A stretch of DNA of 64,000 nucleotides from Algoriphagus hitonicola (lineage in GTDB: Bacteria > Bacteroidota > Bacteroidia > Cytophagales > Cyclobacteriaceae), in NCBI RefSeq assembly GCF_900113375.1, contig NZ_FOPC01000001.1, positions 124,001 to 188,000 on the forward strand, read 5' to 3'. The first letter of the stretch is position 1. Every line of letters begins with the position of its first letter. Positions 3,074 through 43,086 of the stretch are shown here, in pieces. A program made the translations under genes and the position numbers. A model generated the notes under the pieces. It ran no database searches. It had not been told where the DNA came from and saw only the letters and a list, made by a program, of their open reading frames with translations.

Positions 3074-4111
3074 ATGTCCTCTCGTCGAAAATTTCTTCAA
3101 ACCTCCTCCCTAATAGGCCTAGCTATGAGCATCAAACCAAATTTAATCTATTCCAACCCTTCCATGATTTTAGGCCATGGCGATTTTAAATATCAGGTAG
3201 ATAAAAAATGGGGGATGCTGGATTTCGCAAAATTCCCCGTGAATAATTGTCATGAAATGGTGATGGATCGTAAAAAGCGGATGATTCTGCTCACAGACGA
3301 AGCTAAAAATAATGTGATCATTTACGATCAATCCGGGAAGTACCTGGACTCTTGGACGCTGAATCTTGCTGCGGCCCATGGTCTTACTTTGGTGGATGAA
3401 GGAGATGCCGAGTACCTGTGGATCGTGGACAATGGAGGAAAAGTCCTGAAAACCACATTGGAAGGAAAAATCGTAACCGAGATTGCTTCTCCGATATCTG
3501 AAGGAATCTATGAGCAAAATATGCCCTATGTGCCTACCGAAACAGCCATTGCTCCAAACGGTGACTTGTACATTGCAGACGGATACGGTTCCCAGTACTT
3601 TTTACACTATGATTCGAAGGGGAATTTTATCCGGAAATTTGGTGGGGACGGACACGAAGATCATCAGTTTAAGACCGCCCATGGCATTACCATTGATCAG
3701 CGAGGAGGGAAAGAACCCACTTTATTGTGTACTTCGAGAGGACATAATTCTTTCAAGCGTTTTACGATGGATGGAAAATACTTGGAGACGATATTTTTAC
3801 CCGGAGCTTTCGTTTGTCGACCTGTCATTGATGGCGATGAACTCTATGCAGGCGTATGCTGGTCCCGACTTAAGTACCTGGAGCAAATGGATAATTCGGG
3901 ATTTGTAACGATTTTAAATAAAGAAAACAAGGTAGTTTCCAATCCGGGAGGCACGTCCCCTACGTACGTGGATGGAGAACTGCAATTAATCAAGCAAGAG
4001 AATCCCGTATTCCAGCATTGCCATGACGTATGCATAGATCAGGACAAAAACATCTACGTCTGCCAGTGGAACGCCGGAAAATCATATCCTATCAAACTGA
4101 TCAGAGTTTAA
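3074..4111 (+). CDS. Secreted NHL-repeat-like 6-bladed beta-propeller with Tat-type signal
   Basis: 345 residues. The N-terminus MSSRRKFLQTSSLIGLAMS is a twin-arginine signal (S-R-R-K-F-L), so export of a folded protein is likely. The rest is built of NHL/SMP30-like blades: repeated hydrophobic-Asp-x-x-Gly-x-hydrophobic strands such as NVIIYDQSGKYLDSW, PNGDLYIADGYGS, FIRKFGGDGHEDHQF and DKNIYVCQWNAGK. Such proteins are often annotated as NHL-repeat or peptidylglycine-monooxygenase-like; no catalytic residues can be assigned, so a role in binding or hydrolysing sugars or other ligands is only inference. Single-gene unit. Confidence 0.75.
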   Translation: MSSRRKFLQTSSLIGLAMSIKPNLIYSNPSMILGHGDFKYQVDKKWGMLDFAKFPVNNCHEMVMDRKKRMILLTDEAKNNVIIYDQSGKYLDSWTLNLAAAHGLTLVDEGDAEYLWIVDNGGKVLKTTLEGKIVTEIASPISEGIYEQNMPYVPTETAIAPNGDLYIADGYGSQYFLHYDSKGNFIRKFGGDGHEDHQFKTAHGITIDQRGGKEPTLLCTSRGHNSFKRFTMDGKYLETIFLPGAFVCRPVIDGDELYAGVCWSRLKYLEQMDNSGFVTILNKENKVVSNPGGTSPTYVDGELQLIKQENPVFQHCHDVCIDQDKNIYVCQWNAGKSYPIKLIRV

Positions 4112-4176
4112 TTTCGTTATAACTATCAAAAATGATTTTTATATCTTAATTTTATACTTTCAAATATTTTTCCAGA

Positions 4177-5472
4177 ATGAATTTGTCAAAAATTGACTGG
4201 CCTGATTCACTACACGATTTGCAGGCTAAAATTTCAGAAACTTTTGCATTGCTTGCCGGGCTTTTATTATTGTTTTTGGGAGCTTCTGATTACTTTCTCG
4301 GCCTGGGAGTCTTCATTATCACGGTCAAGTTTATCCTCGCCTTTCCTTTTTTTCTAGGGTATTTTTGGATGAAAAAAAAGGGGAATCATAATCTGGTGAT
4401 TCAGTTGCTTTTAGCGGTAGGATTATTGGCTGTGACCTTAAATTATTTCTATAATGAAGGCTATCGTGGACCTACGATTTACACCATTTTTATAGTAATC
4501 GTATCTGTTGGAATTTTTATCAAAAAGAAACTAGTTCAGTTTATTTGGCTTGGAGGTGCTATTCTACTTTATTCCACATTTTTCTATTTAGAAATCAAAA
4601 ACATCATCGTAGTAGAGCAGCATTATACTGGTCTGGAAAATTTATTTTGGGACCATATCGTCACCTTGTTGTGGTGCGGGCTTTTCGTTTTTTTTGGAGT
4701 ATATATTTTTGTGAGCAACTATCAGAAACAAAATGTTACTTTAGAAAATCTCCGTAAACTCAATGAGCAAAACCTAAAGGAACTTTCGGAAATCAATCTG
4801 AAAAAAAATCAACTCCTGGCGATGCTTACCCATGATTTGAAAAATCCTATCGGGACCTTAAGTACAACTCTTGATCTCATGGATGCCATGGAAATGGATG
4901 AAAGAGAGTTGGATATTATTTTCAAGGATCTAAAAAATCAAAGTTTTCACCTCAATAATGTCCTAAACAATACCCTGAGTTGGGTGAAAACTGAGCTTTC
5001 TGATTTGGAGGCCGAGTTGGTTTCGTGTAGTCTTTTGAAGTTTAGTGAGGAGCTGGTCAAAACAATGGAATCTCAGGCTAATCGCAAAAATCAACACATC
5101 CAATTTGAGTTTTTGGGTGAAGATAGAACGCTAGAATTGGAGGCGAATGAGATCAGAATTATTCTCAAAAACCTATTGGATAATGCCATCAAGTTTTCTC
5201 CAGAAGGCAGTACAATTCACTTTCAGCTCAGCGTGGATAATCAAAAAATCCGTTGGGAGGTCATTAATAGTGGGATAAGTATTCCTAAAGAAATCCGAAA
5301 AAACCTTTTTGAGTTTCAGGTAAAATCCTCTTTTGGAACCAAGCGGGAAAAAGGCACTGGGCTTGGACTTCATTTGTGTAAAAAGATTGCAGATAGCTTA
5401 GGAATTCATCTGGGTTTTGATCTCTCAACCCATGGAGAGAACCGCTTTTTTCTAGTTCGGGAAAACCAATAA
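4177..5472 (+). CDS. Membrane sensor histidine kinase
   Basis: 431 residues. The first ~180 carry about six membrane helices, with no obvious periplasmic sensor domain, then a short coiled coil. HisKA follows with the H-box LLAMLTHDLKNP (phospho-acceptor His219) and HATPase_c with N-box LKNLLDNAIKFSPEGS (about residue 330) and G-box GTGLGLHLCKKIADSLG (about residue 392). No receiver domain is fused and no response regulator is adjacent, so the partner is encoded elsewhere. Its stop codon directly abuts the stop of the convergent lutC gene with no base between them. Confidence 0.9.
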   Translation: MNLSKIDWPDSLHDLQAKISETFALLAGLLLLFLGASDYFLGLGVFIITVKFILAFPFFLGYFWMKKKGNHNLVIQLLLAVGLLAVTLNYFYNEGYRGPTIYTIFIVIVSVGIFIKKKLVQFIWLGGAILLYSTFFYLEIKNIIVVEQHYTGLENLFWDHIVTLLWCGLFVFFGVYIFVSNYQKQNVTLENLRKLNEQNLKELSEINLKKNQLLAMLTHDLKNPIGTLSTTLDLMDAMEMDERELDIIFKDLKNQSFHLNNVLNNTLSWVKTELSDLEAELVSCSLLKFSEELVKTMESQANRKNQHIQFEFLGEDRTLELEANEIRIILKNLLDNAIKFSPEGSTIHFQLSVDNQKIRWEVINSGISIPKEIRKNLFEFQVKSSFGTKREKGTGLGLHLCKKIADSLGIHLGFDLSTHGENRFFLVRENQ

Positions 5473-13443: not shown

Positions 13444-13671
13444 ATGAAAAATTTATTTACAATTTTAATGTTCAGTGGATCTTTGCTTTTAGGATTTTCT
13501 TCAGAAGGTAAAACCTACTGTACTGTTGATGAAAATGGGAACAACCCTAATTTTTGTAGGGCAGGTGCGAATCCCGGGGACGCATATTGTTTTACATGGG
13601 GTACTGGAACGGCATGTAATGGAAATGCAACAATTAAACCCAATCCTGACGATCCAGAAATTGGTGATTAA
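13444..13671 (+). CDS. Small secreted Cys-rich peptide (type 1)
   Basis: 75 residues: a Sec-type signal (MKNLFTILMFSGSLLLGFSS) and a ~50-residue mature part with four cysteines (C26-x11-C38-x10-C49-x8-C58), ending in PEIGD. No family is recognised with certainty; size, Cys content and position beside a 6-bladed propeller recall the NVEALA peptides of Bacteroides. A homologue with the same Cys pattern and PEIGD ending follows the propeller gene at 14884 but carries an in-frame stop. Likely co-transcribed with the propeller 22 bases downstream. Confidence 0.7.
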   Translation: MKNLFTILMFSGSLLLGFSSEGKTYCTVDENGNNPNFCRAGANPGDAYCFTWGTGTACNGNATIKPNPDDPEIGD

Positions 13672-13693
13672 AATGGATTAAATCAATTTCATT

Positions 13694-14887
13694 TTGGAAA
13701 AGGTTTATTGGGTTCAAAGCCTATTGTTTTTACTTATTATTTCCGGTTGTGGTCGGAATAACAATAGTTCCTATCAGGAATTTTCAGAGGAAAATCATCT
13801 GATTTTTTCTGATTCGTTAAAATTGTCAGAATCAGGATATTTTTCATTAATGTTAGATCAGTCCATCGGACAAACATCTAATTCAATGAGCTATTCGAGT
13901 TCGGATGATGTATTGTCAATTTTTAATATTTTGAACCATTCGCTTTATCTTTTTAATGGGGAGAATGGTAAGATTTCTTCAATAATTCCTTTGGAATTTG
14001 AAGGGCCAAATGGTGTGGGGGATTTGGGCTTGATTTCATCGCATTTGATCAAATCTCAGAAAGAGATTTATTTATACAATCAAAACATAGGAGTTTTATT
14101 TAAAATTGATTCTAGCGGTGTAATACTGAATAAAGCTCGAGTGACCGATTATAGAGATGAGGCGAATTTACCTGTACCTTATCCATCCACGATGCGGCCT
14201 TTTTACGTGAAAGGTGATTTAGTTTTCTTTCCCTGTGAAATAAACAATCGGCTTTCTGATTATTCATCATACCCAGCTGTACTACGATATGATCTTGGAA
14301 AAAAGGAAGCTAAGTCCATTATTTCTTTTTCTAGCCCATATAATGAAGCCTATTGGGGGCCTTACTATAAATATCAGCCGTCGCTAACATTTGGGCCAAA
14401 AAATAATATTTATGTGAGTTTTCCGATTGATCATACTATTTATATTATGGATTCAAATGGTGATTTTGTAGATTCAAGGTATGTCGGCTCAAAATTCATG
14501 AAAGAATTTGAACCTTATCAAGAGGATGTGGAATATTGGAAATCCGTAGATTTATCTGTGGCAGATGAGCGGGAGCGAATTCATGGATATTCGACAAGTG
14601 AATATAGATCAATTTTATATGACGAAACAAATTCTCTTTTTTATCGAATTTGTTTTATTAGGCCATCGGAGGAAGAAATATTGAATGAGGTATATGATTT
14701 TGATATTTCAATTATTATAATGGATAAAAATTTAAATAAGGTCGGTGAGTCTGTTTATCCTAGCTCGAAATATAACTTTGATATGATTTTTTTAAGGAAA
14801 GGAGAATTATTTGTTAAAAGAAATGATTTAAGTGAGAAAATAGAAAATGAAATAGTTTTTGAAATGTTAAAACCAGAAAAGTTATGA
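13694..14887 (+). CDS. 6-bladed beta-propeller lipoprotein (DUF4221/TolB-like)
   Basis: About 397 residues. No ATG is available: an in-frame stop lies at 13679 and the lipoprotein signal (VYWVQSLLFLLIISGC) must be included, so a TTG at 13694 is the probable start. The body shows propeller strands such as KEIYLYNQNIGVLFKIDSSG, AVLRYDLGKKEAKSI and NNIYVSFPIDHTIYIMDSNG, as in the DUF4221 and TolB-like families. Located between a small Cys peptide gene and its broken paralogue; its stop overlaps the paralogue's ATG (ATGA). Composition is noticeably more AT-rich than the flanking metabolic genes, consistent with acquisition. Confidence 0.75.
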   Translation: MEKVYWVQSLLFLLIISGCGRNNNSSYQEFSEENHLIFSDSLKLSESGYFSLMLDQSIGQTSNSMSYSSSDDVLSIFNILNHSLYLFNGENGKISSIIPLEFEGPNGVGDLGLISSHLIKSQKEIYLYNQNIGVLFKIDSSGVILNKARVTDYRDEANLPVPYPSTMRPFYVKGDLVFFPCEINNRLSDYSSYPAVLRYDLGKKEAKSIISFSSPYNEAYWGPYYKYQPSLTFGPKNNIYVSFPIDHTIYIMDSNGDFVDSRYVGSKFMKEFEPYQEDVEYWKSVDLSVADERERIHGYSTSEYRSILYDETNSLFYRICFIRPSEEEILNEVYDFDISIIIMDKNLNKVGESVYPSSKYNFDMIFLRKGELFVKRNDLSEKIENEIVFEMLKPEKL

Positions 14888-15114
14888 TGAAAAAATTAAT
14901 TGTGTTCTTTAGTATTTCCTTTTTGTTCTGTCTTTAACTAAATGCAGGAATTTGTTTAGGAGATCCGGATGAAGAAAAATTAGTTGGACATTGTCGTCCA
15001 GCTGCTAATCCAAATGATGGTAATTATTGTTATTTATCGGGTACAGGACCTCTATGTGCTTCTACATTAATTAATGGTAATGTTGTGCCTGTAGAACCTG
15101 AGATTGGAGACTAA
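14884..15114 (+). pseudogene. Second small Cys-rich secreted peptide, in-frame TAA
   Basis: Reading from the ATG at 14884 or 14887 gives MKKLIVFFSISFLFCL, then TAA at 14935-14937, then in the same frame LNAGICLGDPDEEK and onward to PEIGD. Downstream of the stop the sequence matches the peptide at 13444: Cys-x12-Cys-x11-Cys-x8-Cys, HCRPAANPNDGNYC against FCRAGANPGDAYC, shared GTG and the same PEIGD end. The stop falls inside the signal peptide, so no mature product is expected unless it is read through or is a sequencing error. Confidence 0.8.
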
Positions 15115-15121
15115 TTACTAT

Positions 15122-15154
15122 AAAAAGGCCAGGGAAGTAATCCTGGCCTTTTTT
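15122..15154. terminator. Bidirectional terminator
   Basis: AAAAAGGCCAGG and CCTGGCCTTTTTT flank an 8-base loop. A-run on the left and T-run on the right let it serve both the peptide/propeller unit (+) and the convergent YceI gene (-). Confidence 0.85.
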
Positions 15155-39776: not shown

Positions 39777-40844
39777 TTAAAAATCAATGGTTTTGATTAC
39801 AAAGCCTTCATCATTCTCTTTTTGTCCCTGTATGAGTTGATAAAGGGAATTTCCTTTTGTCGTCATCAGGCAAGGACTTGCTCCCAAAATTTTATTGGAT
39901 TTATAGACTTGGGTCAGTTCAAAGTTATCATCTAAGACATAATATTTGTCAAACCTATGAGAACTGTTGGTGATTCCCTTTTGAGCATCGCCTTCATAAT
40001 ATCCCACTTCGGATATCAAAACCATCCCTTTATCTAAAGCGGAAATCCCCGTAACAGTGCTATTTTCATTGATGAACTTCACAGCTTGATTAAAATCCGA
40101 ATTGACCATATCCACCGGGTTGGTTTTGATTTCTCCAACCTGAAATTCCTCATCTGTAAGGCTTGTTTCTTCGATAGATTGCATAGTGGTAAGGTCAAAC
40201 TTGTTGATTTTAAGCTCATCCGAAGGGATGTAAATCAAATAATTGTTTTTTAAATCTATCCCTCCCGAGCAGGAAAAAATATCTAACAACACTTGTTCAT
40301 TACTGACTTCACCCAGGCTTTTTTCTAATTTCCCTAAACCTAAATCATAGACTTGGATATATGAGTCCATAAAGCCACCTTTAGTGTAGGCGATGAGTTT
40401 GTCTTCAAAAGGGGTAAAATTACTAATGGCCCGATCAAAAATTTTAAATTCTTCTATCGGATCACCGTCTGGGGTATAAGTGATGAGTTTTAATTGTTGA
40501 CTACACCAAAGATAAATTTTCCCATCGTAATACTTTACAATGGAGGGATTCTGAAACTGCAAAGGGCCATTTCCCTCGGCCTGAATTACTTTTTCTTGAT
40601 TGCCATCTTGATCATAAATAATCATTTTGGGCGAGTTCAGATCAGTCAGGACAATCCTACCGTCCTCCATGATGTCAAAAGATGAAGGGCTTCCCAGTAA
40701 AGATAAATTATCCTGAAGTTCTGCCAGCGATTGGAAATTGGGTTCTTTTGGTGAAGATTTTTCGGTATTTGTCAATGAATTGTTTTCACAAGAAAAAAAT
40801 AGGAAGAAAATGTAACTAAAGAATGGTAGAAGCTTTCTCTGCAT
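39777..40844 (-). CDS. 6-bladed beta-propeller lipoprotein
   Basis: 355 residues from the ATG at 40844 (MQRKLLPFFSYIFFLFFSC, lipobox). The body has propeller blades: SSFDIMEDGRIVLTDLNSPK, MIIYDQDGNQEKVIQAEGNG, KLITYTPDGDPIEEFKIF and YYVLDDNFELTQVYKS. Family assignment is TolB-like / DUF4934-type 6-bladed propeller, typical of Bacteroidota lipoproteins often paired with small secreted peptides. No peptide gene adjoins it directly; a partial HTH gene copy occupies the position where one would be expected. Confidence 0.8.
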   Translation of the reverse strand: MQRKLLPFFSYIFFLFFSCENNSLTNTEKSSPKEPNFQSLAELQDNLSLLGSPSSFDIMEDGRIVLTDLNSPKMIIYDQDGNQEKVIQAEGNGPLQFQNPSIVKYYDGKIYLWCSQQLKLITYTPDGDPIEEFKIFDRAISNFTPFEDKLIAYTKGGFMDSYIQVYDLGLGKLEKSLGEVSNEQVLLDIFSCSGGIDLKNNYLIYIPSDELKINKFDLTTMQSIEETSLTDEEFQVGEIKTNPVDMVNSDFNQAVKFINENSTVTGISALDKGMVLISEVGYYEGDAQKGITNSSHRFDKYYVLDDNFELTQVYKSNKILGASPCLMTTKGNSLYQLIQGQKENDEGFVIKTIDF

Positions 40845-40896
40845 TTCTTTGAATAAAATTGTTAATTTCAATATTAGTAATAGAATTCCTTTTTTC

Positions 40897-41040
40897 AAAT
40901 CCAGAAAAGAAATCACCGAGGAATTTGAGATTTCTGCCAAAACCCTAACCCGCTGGATTCAAAAGGAAAAACTGGTTATTTCCCGAGGTTCGATTTCCCC
41001 TAAGGAACAAGAACTGATTTATTCTAATGTATATTTATAA
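40897..41040 (+). pseudogene. Partial copy of small HTH protein gene
   Basis: Reads KSRKEITEEFEISAKTLTRW and IQKEKLVISRGSISPKEQEL, matching the intact HTH gene at 42910 over 127 bases without indels (40897-41023 against 42928-43054). The 5' end with the start codon is missing and the 3' end is replaced by YSNVYL. It is therefore a truncated duplicate. The stop codon of the convergent propeller gene (41019-41021) lies inside this copy. Confidence 0.75.
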
Positions 41041-42053
41041 AGGGTAAAAGGGTCTTCATCATTGTCGTAGGTAAGACCATATAAGTAATTGTCTTCATAT
41101 ACTGTAATTTGATACACTTCTTTATCTAGAATTATTTTTTTTCTGGGTTTACCAGAGTGATCAAAAACCAAAACTGTATTCGATACGTATTTAAACTCTT
41201 TCTTGTCAGTAATGTAAAGCAAATAAATAAAATTTTCGGTTATAATGCTGGAATAATAGTATTTTAATTCACCAATTAATTCATTTGAAGGTAAAGGATC
41301 TGGACCAACAATATTTACTTCTTGATTAGTACTTAAGTTAATTATTTGAAAAAGAGGGATATTGAAATATGAAATTAAGGCAATGTCTTTACAGTTGCTG
41401 ATTTCGGCTTGGTTCAAGGTCGTTTTTTGATCAAAATCGTTTAACTTTTCGTAATTCAAATTCAATTTTGGAAAATTCCCAAACTGTCTTAAGTCAGATA
41501 AAGAGTCTGTTGTTTTTCCTACAATAAGCCTGGAATCCTCATTGTAATTTCCAAGTATATAAAATTTCTCGTCGAATTCTATTACCCCATTGCTATGCAT
41601 TGCTTCTTTTACTGTGTATTCACCTTTTAATCCTTTATCTTGAATTATTGAATCCTTATTATAAATTAATATTTTTCCTATTTCATGGTCCAAGATTCCG
41701 ATGTCGTTAAAATTAAAGGGGAATAATTTCCATGCATTAGGGACTTCCCCAGGCCCCATTCCTCTACTTCCGAAACGTCCTAAGTGTGTTTCATTTTTTA
41801 GATTGATGATATGGACTAGATTGCCTGGACTTCTTTCTGCTATTAATAGATAATCTCCCACTAGCCCAATTGAACTTGGAAAAATAAGGGAATCCGAAAT
41901 TTTATTTAATGGTTGTCCCGTAATCTTTGTAACAGATTCAAAGTCAGAATGGGAAAATTGTGAATCCTGATTTAAGAGCTTTCTTTCATTTTGAGTACAA
42001 CTTATTGTTAAAATTGAGAGAAAGCTTATTAAAAGATTTTTCTTAATATTCAT
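41019..42053 (-). CDS. TolB-like 6-bladed beta-propeller lipoprotein
   Basis: 344 residues: lipoprotein signal MNIKKNLLISFLSILTISC, then propeller strands LVGDYLLIAERSPGNLVHII, LGRFGSRGMGPGEVPNAWKL, DIGILDHEIGKILIYNKDSI and TVLVFDHSGKPRKKIILDK. The FGSRGMGPGE segment is typical of the TolB-like/BF-type propellers of Bacteroidota. The small Cys peptide gene lies 100 bases upstream on the same strand, so they form a pair. The C-terminal residues and stop are supplied by the adjoining repeat (41019-41023), suggesting a recombination junction. AT-rich codon use. Confidence 0.8.
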   Translation of the reverse strand: MNIKKNLLISFLSILTISCTQNERKLLNQDSQFSHSDFESVTKITGQPLNKISDSLIFPSSIGLVGDYLLIAERSPGNLVHIINLKNETHLGRFGSRGMGPGEVPNAWKLFPFNFNDIGILDHEIGKILIYNKDSIIQDKGLKGEYTVKEAMHSNGVIEFDEKFYILGNYNEDSRLIVGKTTDSLSDLRQFGNFPKLNLNYEKLNDFDQKTTLNQAEISNCKDIALISYFNIPLFQIINLSTNQEVNIVGPDPLPSNELIGELKYYYSSIITENFIYLLYITDKKEFKYVSNTVLVFDHSGKPRKKIILDKEVYQITVYEDNYLYGLTYDNDEDPFTLYKYTLE

Positions 42054-42153
42054 TTGCTTTTCTAATCGTATAAAAAAGATCTATGCATTAATTTGCTATT
42101 ATCTTAGTTTCGAACTATTTAACCTGAGATAGAATTGATCTTTCATTTTTCAA

Positions 42154-42423
42154 TCACCCTCCCATACCAAAATCTCTGCTCATTCCGATACATATTCCAA
42201 TTATCGGATATCCATTAGGATCAACTGTATTTATGTAGCAATCTCCCTTCGGATCTATTTTGCAGTTGCCATAGCATGTTTCTGGTTTGCTAGACTGTGC
42301 GTATACGGTATTTCCAGAAAATTTTTTTAATCCATTTATACCTACTCCAAAGTTTAAGGATAGAGCAAAAATGAATATTCCTAGAATAAAAGGTTTTCTA
42401 ATTTTTTTAATTGCTGTTTTCAT
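42154..42423 (-). CDS. Small secreted Cys-rich peptide (type 2)
   Basis: 89 residues: basic N-terminus and hydrophobic segment (KPFILGIFIFALSLNFGVG), possible cleavage near TVYAQ, then a short mature part with four cysteines (C-x3-C-x7-C-x14-C) ending GMSRDFGMGG. No family is recognised securely; it resembles NVEALA-type peptides in size, Cys count and linkage to a propeller lipoprotein. Related in architecture, not obviously in sequence, to the peptides at 13444 and 14884. Confidence 0.7.
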   Translation of the reverse strand: MKTAIKKIRKPFILGIFIFALSLNFGVGINGLKKFSGNTVYAQSSKPETCYGNCKIDPKGDCYINTVDPNGYPIIGICIGMSRDFGMGG

Positions 42424-42909: not shown

Positions 42910-43086
42910 ATGAGAACGTACAGAGCAAAATCCAGACAAGAAATCGCCGAGGAATTTGGAATTTCTGCTAAAACCCTAACCCGATGGATTCAAAAGGAAA
43001 ACTTGTCGATTACTAGAGGTTTGGTTTCCCCTAAGGAACAAGAACTGATTTATTTGAAATTTGGGATGCATCAAAAGGCTTCCTAA
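42910..43086 (+). CDS. Small helix-turn-helix DNA-binding protein
   Basis: 58 residues: MRTYRAKSRQEIAEEFGISA and KTLTRWIQKENLSITRGLVS, a clear HTH of the excisionase/transposase-N-terminal type, ending FGMHQKAS. ATG at 42910; too short for ordinary ORF lists. Its 3' two-thirds are duplicated at 40897. Could regulate the neighbouring peptide-propeller genes or derive from a mobile element. Confidence 0.65.
   Translation: MRTYRAKSRQEIAEEFGISAKTLTRWIQKENLSITRGLVSPKEQELIYLKFGMHQKAS

Follow-up and report, generated by a model that had tools for sequence, protein, structure and literature searches.

Bacteroides fragilis secretes a ubiquitin-like toxin of 76 amino acids, BfUbb, whose gene lies in a region that varies between strains; the neighboring beta-propeller genes are divergent even inside a single genetic type, and a repeated 52-bp element lies near those propeller genes. 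The authors of that study infer that BfUbb can do without an immunity protein (PMC5705921). Bacteroidetocins are reported to be antibacterial peptides that come from Bacteroidetes and are active on Bacteroidetes (PMC8546649). As for the propellers that concern us here, Pfam names DUF4221 and DUF5128 as unknown function or fold only, and TolB_like as a fold only. In the open-licence literature, no paper was found with the words NVEALA, DUF4221, DUF4934, "BF3164 family" or "TolB-like 6-blade", and DUF5128 is in no paper among the matches listed. Also, no account of peptide-propeller pairs was found in that open-licence literature, which is not proof of their absence in print.

The NVEALA peptides (PF14055) provide a further point of comparison. 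In one genome (G329), all six NVEALA peptides that score over the cut-off are encoded immediately before a propeller gene on the same strand, a position that is a feature seen in this genome and not a stated definition of the family. Their partner propellers are one DUF4221 and four TolB_like proteins by Pfam, and one more by profiles that we built. Where named Bacteroidales genomes have an NVEALA-like peptide, our profiles also identified the next gene as a propeller at three of four loci (Parabacteroides metagenome-assembled genomes [MAGs] L123 and L124 and Bacteroides neonati L126, not Bacteroides MAG L127), and L123 has, in addition, a CxxC lipoprotein behind its propeller. NVEALA matches below the cut-off in two further genomes (L105 and L106) are not such peptides.

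We analyzed a stretch of 64,000 nucleotides from Algoriphagus hitonicola, called the window here. The unit at 13444-15114 begins with peptide 1 (13444..13671, + strand), which has 75 amino acids, a Sec-type signal peptide as judged by eye, four cysteines in its mature part, and a C-terminal PEIGD; Pfam and NCBIfam scans gave it no match. The next gene (13694..14887, + strand) encodes a DUF4221 (PF13970) propeller lipoprotein of 397 amino acids, and the stop codon of this gene is overlapped by the start of peptide 2 (14884..15114, + strand), which can be placed at 14884 or 14887. An earlier note on this DNA, made from the letters alone, had claimed that the two peptide genes around the propeller are homologous, and this claim holds. 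A search of the whole 4.33-Mb genome with peptide 1 at an E value of 10 matched only itself and peptide 2, the latter with 45% identity over residues 26-75 and an E value of 2.9e-4, so the likeness goes beyond chance; the four-Cys pattern is common to both, as is the PEIGD end (DPEIGD in peptide 1, EPEIGD in peptide 2). The in-frame TAA that the same note had placed inside the signal peptide of peptide 2 is likewise present, at 14935-14937, where it falls in the hydrophobic stretch, while the frame has no other stop and the mature part keeps its four cysteines and its PEIGD. An intrinsic-terminator-like hairpin (15122..15153, + strand) lies 3' of the unit, and the three genes therefore look like one transcription unit, with the qualification that two such hairpins were found against a mean of 1.3 in shuffled sequence, which is not significant alone. 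The genes around the unit look metabolic, and the converging neighbor is YceI-like by eye.

The window propeller clearly belongs to DUF4221, by sequence and by fold. Its Pfam match (E value, 1.3e-22) scores 81.3 bits against a curated cut-off of 23.4, and an AlphaFold model built on 12 sequences (pLDDT, 85) superimposes on the solved DUF4221 protein 3s9j with a Z score of 37 and an rmsd of 2.5 over 338 aligned residues. The protein had been described beforehand as a 6-bladed propeller lipoprotein. Propeller it is, and a lipobox cysteine is recognizable by eye at Cys19; the number of blades is better worded as a prediction of six, drawn from the 24 strands of the model and the match to 3s9j. 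Likeness to the amidating lyase PAL (3fvz) was considered and set aside, since its Z score of 16.9 falls in a range common to many of the propellers listed. The closest named relatives of the window propeller are found in the Algoriphagus species A. marincola, A. marinus, and A. zhangzhouensis. One distant match to the plasmid collection and one to the phage collection (20.9% and 24.0% identity) give no sign of a mobile vehicle for it, so a plasmid or phage origin was rejected. Also, five proteins searched against the anti-phage defense families of PADLOC-DB matched none at an E value of 0.1.

A second module, on the minus strand at 39777-42423, consists of a secreted peptide of 89 amino acids with four cysteines (42154..42423), a TolB_like (PF15869) propeller lipoprotein of 344 amino acids (41019..42053; Pfam E value, 3.1e-12; 46.9 bits against a curated cut-off of 29.2), and, as third gene, a DUF5128 (PF17170) propeller (39777..40940; Pfam E value, 2.8e-9) that has 387 amino acids if counted from an upstream TTG, its true start being probably further in. 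The peptide-propeller pair that had been noted at 41019-42423 is therefore real, with a TolB_like protein as its propeller; its peptide was found at no other place in a search of the genome, so it is not detectably homologous to peptide 1. The peptide and the TolB_like propeller are flanked by direct repeats of 127 bp (40897..41023 and 42928..43054, + strand) that are 87% identical to each other and carry a small HTH-like ORF, to which the left copy belongs. At an E value of 0.01, the genome yielded no further copy of the repeat.

The association of such peptides with propellers extends well beyond the window. We counted it in 58 regions, which are the window and 57 fetched stretches chosen around propellers (L047-L103), by accepting any ORF directly upstream of a gene that encodes a signal peptide and at least three cysteines. 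A peptide ORF of this kind precedes 21 of 65 dispersed DUF4221 genes, 6 of 10 TolB_like genes, and the single DUF5128 gene not at all (0/1), compared with 4 of 338 other genes taken from the same neighborhoods (Fisher p for dispersed DUF4221 versus other genes, 8e-15). Genes in DUF4221 tandem arrays have no accepted upstream peptide (0/34). On the downstream side, peptide ORFs follow 3 of 65 dispersed DUF4221 genes and 11 of 338 other genes.

A slightly looser rule was used to count the window's own genome, with propellers located by Pfam. Upstream peptides were identified for 7 of 23 DUF4221 genes (nine of these 23 are array genes), 7 of 9 TolB_like genes, and 10 of 22 DUF5128 genes (two of these ten are also counted under TolB_like), against 8 of 284 control genes, a figure that still includes two real-looking peptides, L095_10 and L101_1. 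Peptide-like ORFs downstream of controls (16/284 under the looser rule and the 11/338 given above) show the false-positive level of the rule. That secreted peptides go with propellers, as the earlier note had proposed, is supported. Three additional modules were recognized in the same genome, namely, a two-Cys peptide with a DUF4221 propeller at locus L056, a TolB_like module at L044 whose peptide was recognized by homology, and a peptide at L052 whose propeller was found only by one of our own profiles. Altogether, the 4.3-Mb genome contains about 25 peptide-propeller modules (8 + 8 + 8 + 1), in which the propellers adjoining the peptides are DUF4221, TolB_like, and DUF5128 proteins.

Two loci are off pattern. 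One is L101, where a peptide with four cysteines (minus strand, about 4000-4181) is encoded downstream of a CxxC lipoprotein and not upstream of a propeller, and at the other, L095, a peptide precedes a lipoprotein that is not recognized as a propeller.

Searches of other genomes also lead back to propellers. In 97 related genomes, peptide 1 gave ten matches in nine genomes at an E value of 0.1: peptide 1 itself, two matches before a DUF4221 gene (E values, 2.1e-6 and 1.6e-5), and seven weak matches (E values, 0.012-0.07) that were taken as chance, three of their loci having been inspected and the other four matches lying in ORFs of 227-2301 amino acids. For every accepted homologue (L113, L114, L116, L117, and the frameshifted L112), the next gene downstream is a DUF4221 gene; hence, homologues without propellers, which had been named in advance as the result that would count against the association, were not found. 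In A. zhangzhouensis, the Cys peptide is preceded by a second small signal-peptide ORF that may be DUF6520-like (L116:5313-5594).

Among loci in named genomes that were found through their propellers, an accepted upstream peptide is present in 10 of 20, two of the ten being frameshifted MAG copies (L112 and L130). A sample of 296 genomes from across the phylum contains DUF4221 in 15 genomes (13 over the cut-off) and TolB_like in 50 (29 over the cut-off). For DUF4221, 18 of 26 new loci were used (L133, L143, L144, L145, L146, L148, L152, and L156 were left out), and a peptide of this kind precedes the propeller in 9 of these 18; of the nine peptide-less loci, five fall in the half of the propeller tree that holds the array genes. 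For TolB_like, a peptide lies upstream in 10 of 28 loci, of which two ORFs are chance-like (L182 and L188) and are still counted among the ten; L206 gave no ORF.

Peptides and propellers are also inherited in matched fashion. Of 43 DUF4221 modules, 20 have their closest peptide and their closest propeller in one and the same other module, a count slightly raised by L112 and L113, which are one species. The peptide and propeller similarity matrices correlate at 0.28, and the largest value in 1,000 permutations was 0.19; same-family rows are not independent, so the p-values for this correlation, and for the cysteine parity described below, are optimistic. On the propeller tree, the peptide label requires 26 changes (200 shuffles: mean, 36.9; least, 30), whereas 14 are enough for the CxxC label (shuffles: mean, 19.8; least, 16). 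The peptide is, therefore, inherited with its propeller, and yet has often been gained or lost. These tree and pair analyses used 146 of 151 DUF4221 proteins, after those under 330 amino acids and overlapping duplicates were dropped, and the peptide label was counted on 142 propellers because four had fewer than 300 bases upstream. Four chance-looking peptide calls were set to "no peptide" for the tree and also for the pair analysis, where L062_f3794 was set likewise, though it is real-looking. Considered together with the gene order, these patterns make it very likely that peptide and propeller form a matched module.

Nine tandem DUF4221 genes without accepted peptides stand at L063 (contig C22, 408.7-418.9 kb), and similar arrays occur in other genomes of the same genus (L102 and L103). 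That many propellers lack a peptide, this array of nine included, implies that propellers also have a peptide-free role. Array propellers group apart in the FastTree tree, with long branches and weak support, and the peptide-bearing L095_f3624 falls in their half; because of this grouping, a view of peptide-less propellers as "orphan immunity" is not supported as a general rule.

The collected peptides share one trait of composition. The cysteine count of the mature part is even in 59 of 67, where the eight odd counts include wrong signal-peptide cuts (L067 and L184) and the frameshifted L112, all still counted as odd; with a simpler signal-peptide cut, the count is even in 46 of 50. The binomial p of 1e-10 for this parity is too small, because peptide families share ancestry; nevertheless, even counts fit paired disulfides. 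Cysteine spacing varies widely among the peptide families. Ten TolB_like-linked peptides could be aligned, eight of which have a CC...C...C core and two of which, including that of the window, are without the CC. Mature parts look constrained, since dN is less than dS in all eight pairs with a finite dS (the other three of eleven are saturated); diversifying selection is thus not supported, with the reservation that many dS values are close to saturation. Weak matches of the peptides to Phr and AimP in NCBIfam (one member each of 50; E values, 0.0014 and 0.0098) were taken as signal-peptide likeness, and DUF6520 is weakly matched by 2 of the 50 (best E value, 0.0058).

A third gene is frequent in these modules. 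In 30 modules with peptides of at least two cysteines, the propeller is directly followed by the gene for a CxxC lipoprotein, mostly overlapping, in 11, and in a twelfth (L049), the gene comes one position later; it is absent from 18, both window modules among them. Ten of these lipoproteins have about 135-167 amino acids and one has 447. All 12 aligned sequences have the CxxC, the very pattern by which they had been picked. A profile search placed thioredoxin 8t4c first, weakly (E value, 0.0046), a copper-ATPase domain second (E value, 0.015), and glutaredoxins further down, and so the CxxC lipoproteins are possibly thioredoxin-like. Pfam scans of seven of them gave nothing over the cut-off and two sub-cut-off matches to unrelated families, and a single-sequence AlphaFold run gave a failed model (pLDDT, 37). 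Similar genes follow the propeller in 6 of the 18 phylum DUF4221 loci and in a Flavobacteriaceae locus (L115) without a detected peptide. Behind the TolB_like unit at L059 is another lipoprotein, with a sub-cut-off AhpC-TSA_2 match (E value, 0.0016). At L060:5047-5454, a DUF1573 protein (E value, 2.2e-24) comes directly after a peptide-bearing TolB_like propeller, in the place of the CxxC lipoprotein.

The broken state of peptide 2 has a simple reading: either an error of assembly or base calling, or a duplicate in plain decay, with nothing more behind it. One wrong base would suffice to produce a lone stop in an otherwise open frame, and frameshifted copies occur at two MAG loci (L112 and L130). 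However, completeness of the assembly is rated at 100% and contamination at 0.06%, and two further silenced copies, with lesions in the signal-peptide part, stand behind an intact peptide-propeller-CxxC module at C13:195.67-196.12 kb (L052:5674-6117); these count against error more than against decay. One of them has a TAA in its signal peptide and an intact mature part that ends in DPEIGG. The other has no start codon, its lesion also being in the signal-peptide part; it equals the intact copy at 33 of 35 bases at the signal-peptide end, and the best local alignment stops before the mature part. Taken for peptide 2 by itself, this plain reading is probably right, with appreciable room for doubt. 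Searching the fetched loci for more silent copies returned only the frameshifted MAG copies at L112 and L130.

The broken copy and the two silent copies at the other locus suggest turnover, in which peptide 2 would be a duplicate that a lesion in the signal peptide has silenced, next to an intact propeller and an intact peptide 1. In a pair at L059, dS is 0.24 in the signal-peptide part and 2.43 in the mature part, and a leader dS of 0.39 goes with a saturated mature part in the NVEALA pair L107/L109; the opposite pattern also occurs (e.g., L047/L067), where it is the mature parts that are more alike. Low leader dS versus high mature dS means that the histories of leaders and cargoes may be partly independent, as expected from recombination. 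At the boldest, the silent copies might be stored cassettes, which three signal-peptide lesions are too few to prove.

We propose that the peptide would be exported via its Sec signal peptide and, given the parity of its cysteines, would most likely fold with internal disulfides. The propeller lipoprotein encoded directly behind it would be its matched partner in the envelope, as co-inheritance suggests; the two would probably bind each other directly, although we hold this with reservations. In many units, the third gene, which usually overlaps the propeller end, would supply a CxxC lipoprotein that probably handles the disulfides of the peptide. Related cells would most likely use the pair at short range, for antagonism or for recognizing kin, and the propeller would then be the immunity protein or the receptor. 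On balance, a disulfide-bonded secreted peptide that has its own partner in the envelope, serving perhaps in antagonism or kin recognition, is the explanation that we consider probable; antagonism or immunity as the specific role is a tentative suggestion, and so is our preference for antagonism or kin recognition over signaling and redox roles.

The same matched co-inheritance, and the many parallel pairs in one genome, would also fit the specificity of a ligand for its receptor, and the peptide might then be a pheromone with an envelope receptor that serves self or density sensing rather than killing. Three peptide-less DUF4221 genes (L054, L069, and L081) lie 112-236 bp after a gene that looks by eye like a response regulator (near the L054 propeller, at L054:4875-5636), and these three, with L094, form one small clade of the propeller tree. 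Nevertheless, no signal-transducing gene recurs, by eye, beside the peptide-bearing modules, and the small HTH ORFs of the second locus number two in the genome, both there; we regard a pheromone as rather unlikely. More doubtful still is an envelope thiol or redox device, in which the Cys-rich peptide would be the substrate, buffer, or sensor for the CxxC lipoprotein and would be held by the propeller. The 11 of 30 modules with the CxxC gene directly behind the propeller, the twelfth one gene later, the mostly even cysteine counts, and the AhpC-TSA_2 match at L059 all agree with such a device, but the other 18 modules, including both in the window, are without the gene, and widely different cysteine spacing is unneeded in a generic redox buffer. 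The widest extension of the preferred reading, a secreted disulfide peptide with its envelope partner, is an undescribed recognition or antagonism system throughout the phylum Bacteroidota, with some 25 loci in one genome, peptides diversified by recombination between leader and cargo, and, as stored donor cassettes, downstream copies whose silencing lies in the signal peptide only. We posit this whole only as a long shot.

The peptide and the frequent CxxC lipoprotein give these propellers a shared, testable context. Also, the modules connect the NVEALA peptides to peptides from relatives of Algoriphagus that look unrelated to them. Should the pairs prove to be toxin and immunity protein or pheromone and receptor, a large unrecognized peptide repertoire would exist in Bacteroidota; this single genome offers about 25 loci for testing.

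Comparison with the known systems places the modules as follows. The NVEALA model has no match to the two intact window peptides, and nothing in the genome scores over its cut-off, so the HMM check suggested in the earlier note came out negative. Four of 50 collected peptides match the model at an E value of 0.01, and hhalign aligned only four columns between the peptide 1 family and eight NVEALA-type peptides. By eye, the NVEALA leader motif is absent from peptide 1, peptide 2, and the peptide at 42154-42423; before a DUF4221 propeller at L089:4659-4892, there is a peptide with a pro-region that looks like the NVEALA leader. NVEALA membership of the window peptides is, therefore, not supported by the HMM and profile-profile tests, and we do not file them there, because the sequence tests fail though the architecture agrees. 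What had been suggested as a related secreted-peptide system stands in its tie to propellers and in its NVEALA-like architecture, with six of six NVEALA peptides in G329 placed the same way, and does not stand as a part of the NVEALA family.

Bacteroidetocins carry a double-glycine leader, which peptide 1, by eye, lacks before its first mature cysteine, and we know of no propeller link for them. For DUF4221 (PF13970, 3s9j), where sequence and fold alike place the window propeller, the Pfam model gives no function. BfUbb is like the window modules in being a small secreted protein with divergent beta-propeller genes adjoining it, and is unlike the window peptides in being ubiquitin-like and in having propellers as neighbors rather than as demonstrated partners (PMC5705921). 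By analogy, it may serve as a precedent for antagonism; since its authors see no call for an immunity protein, the analogy to a propeller acting as immunity is weakened (PMC5705921). NVEALA-propeller pairs and the window modules are alike in gene order, size, export signal, cysteines in the C-terminal part, and a propeller directly downstream, and they differ in that the window peptides are without the leader motif and without a match to the model. The window system, we suggest, works like the NVEALA-propeller pairs and is probably their counterpart in this genome.
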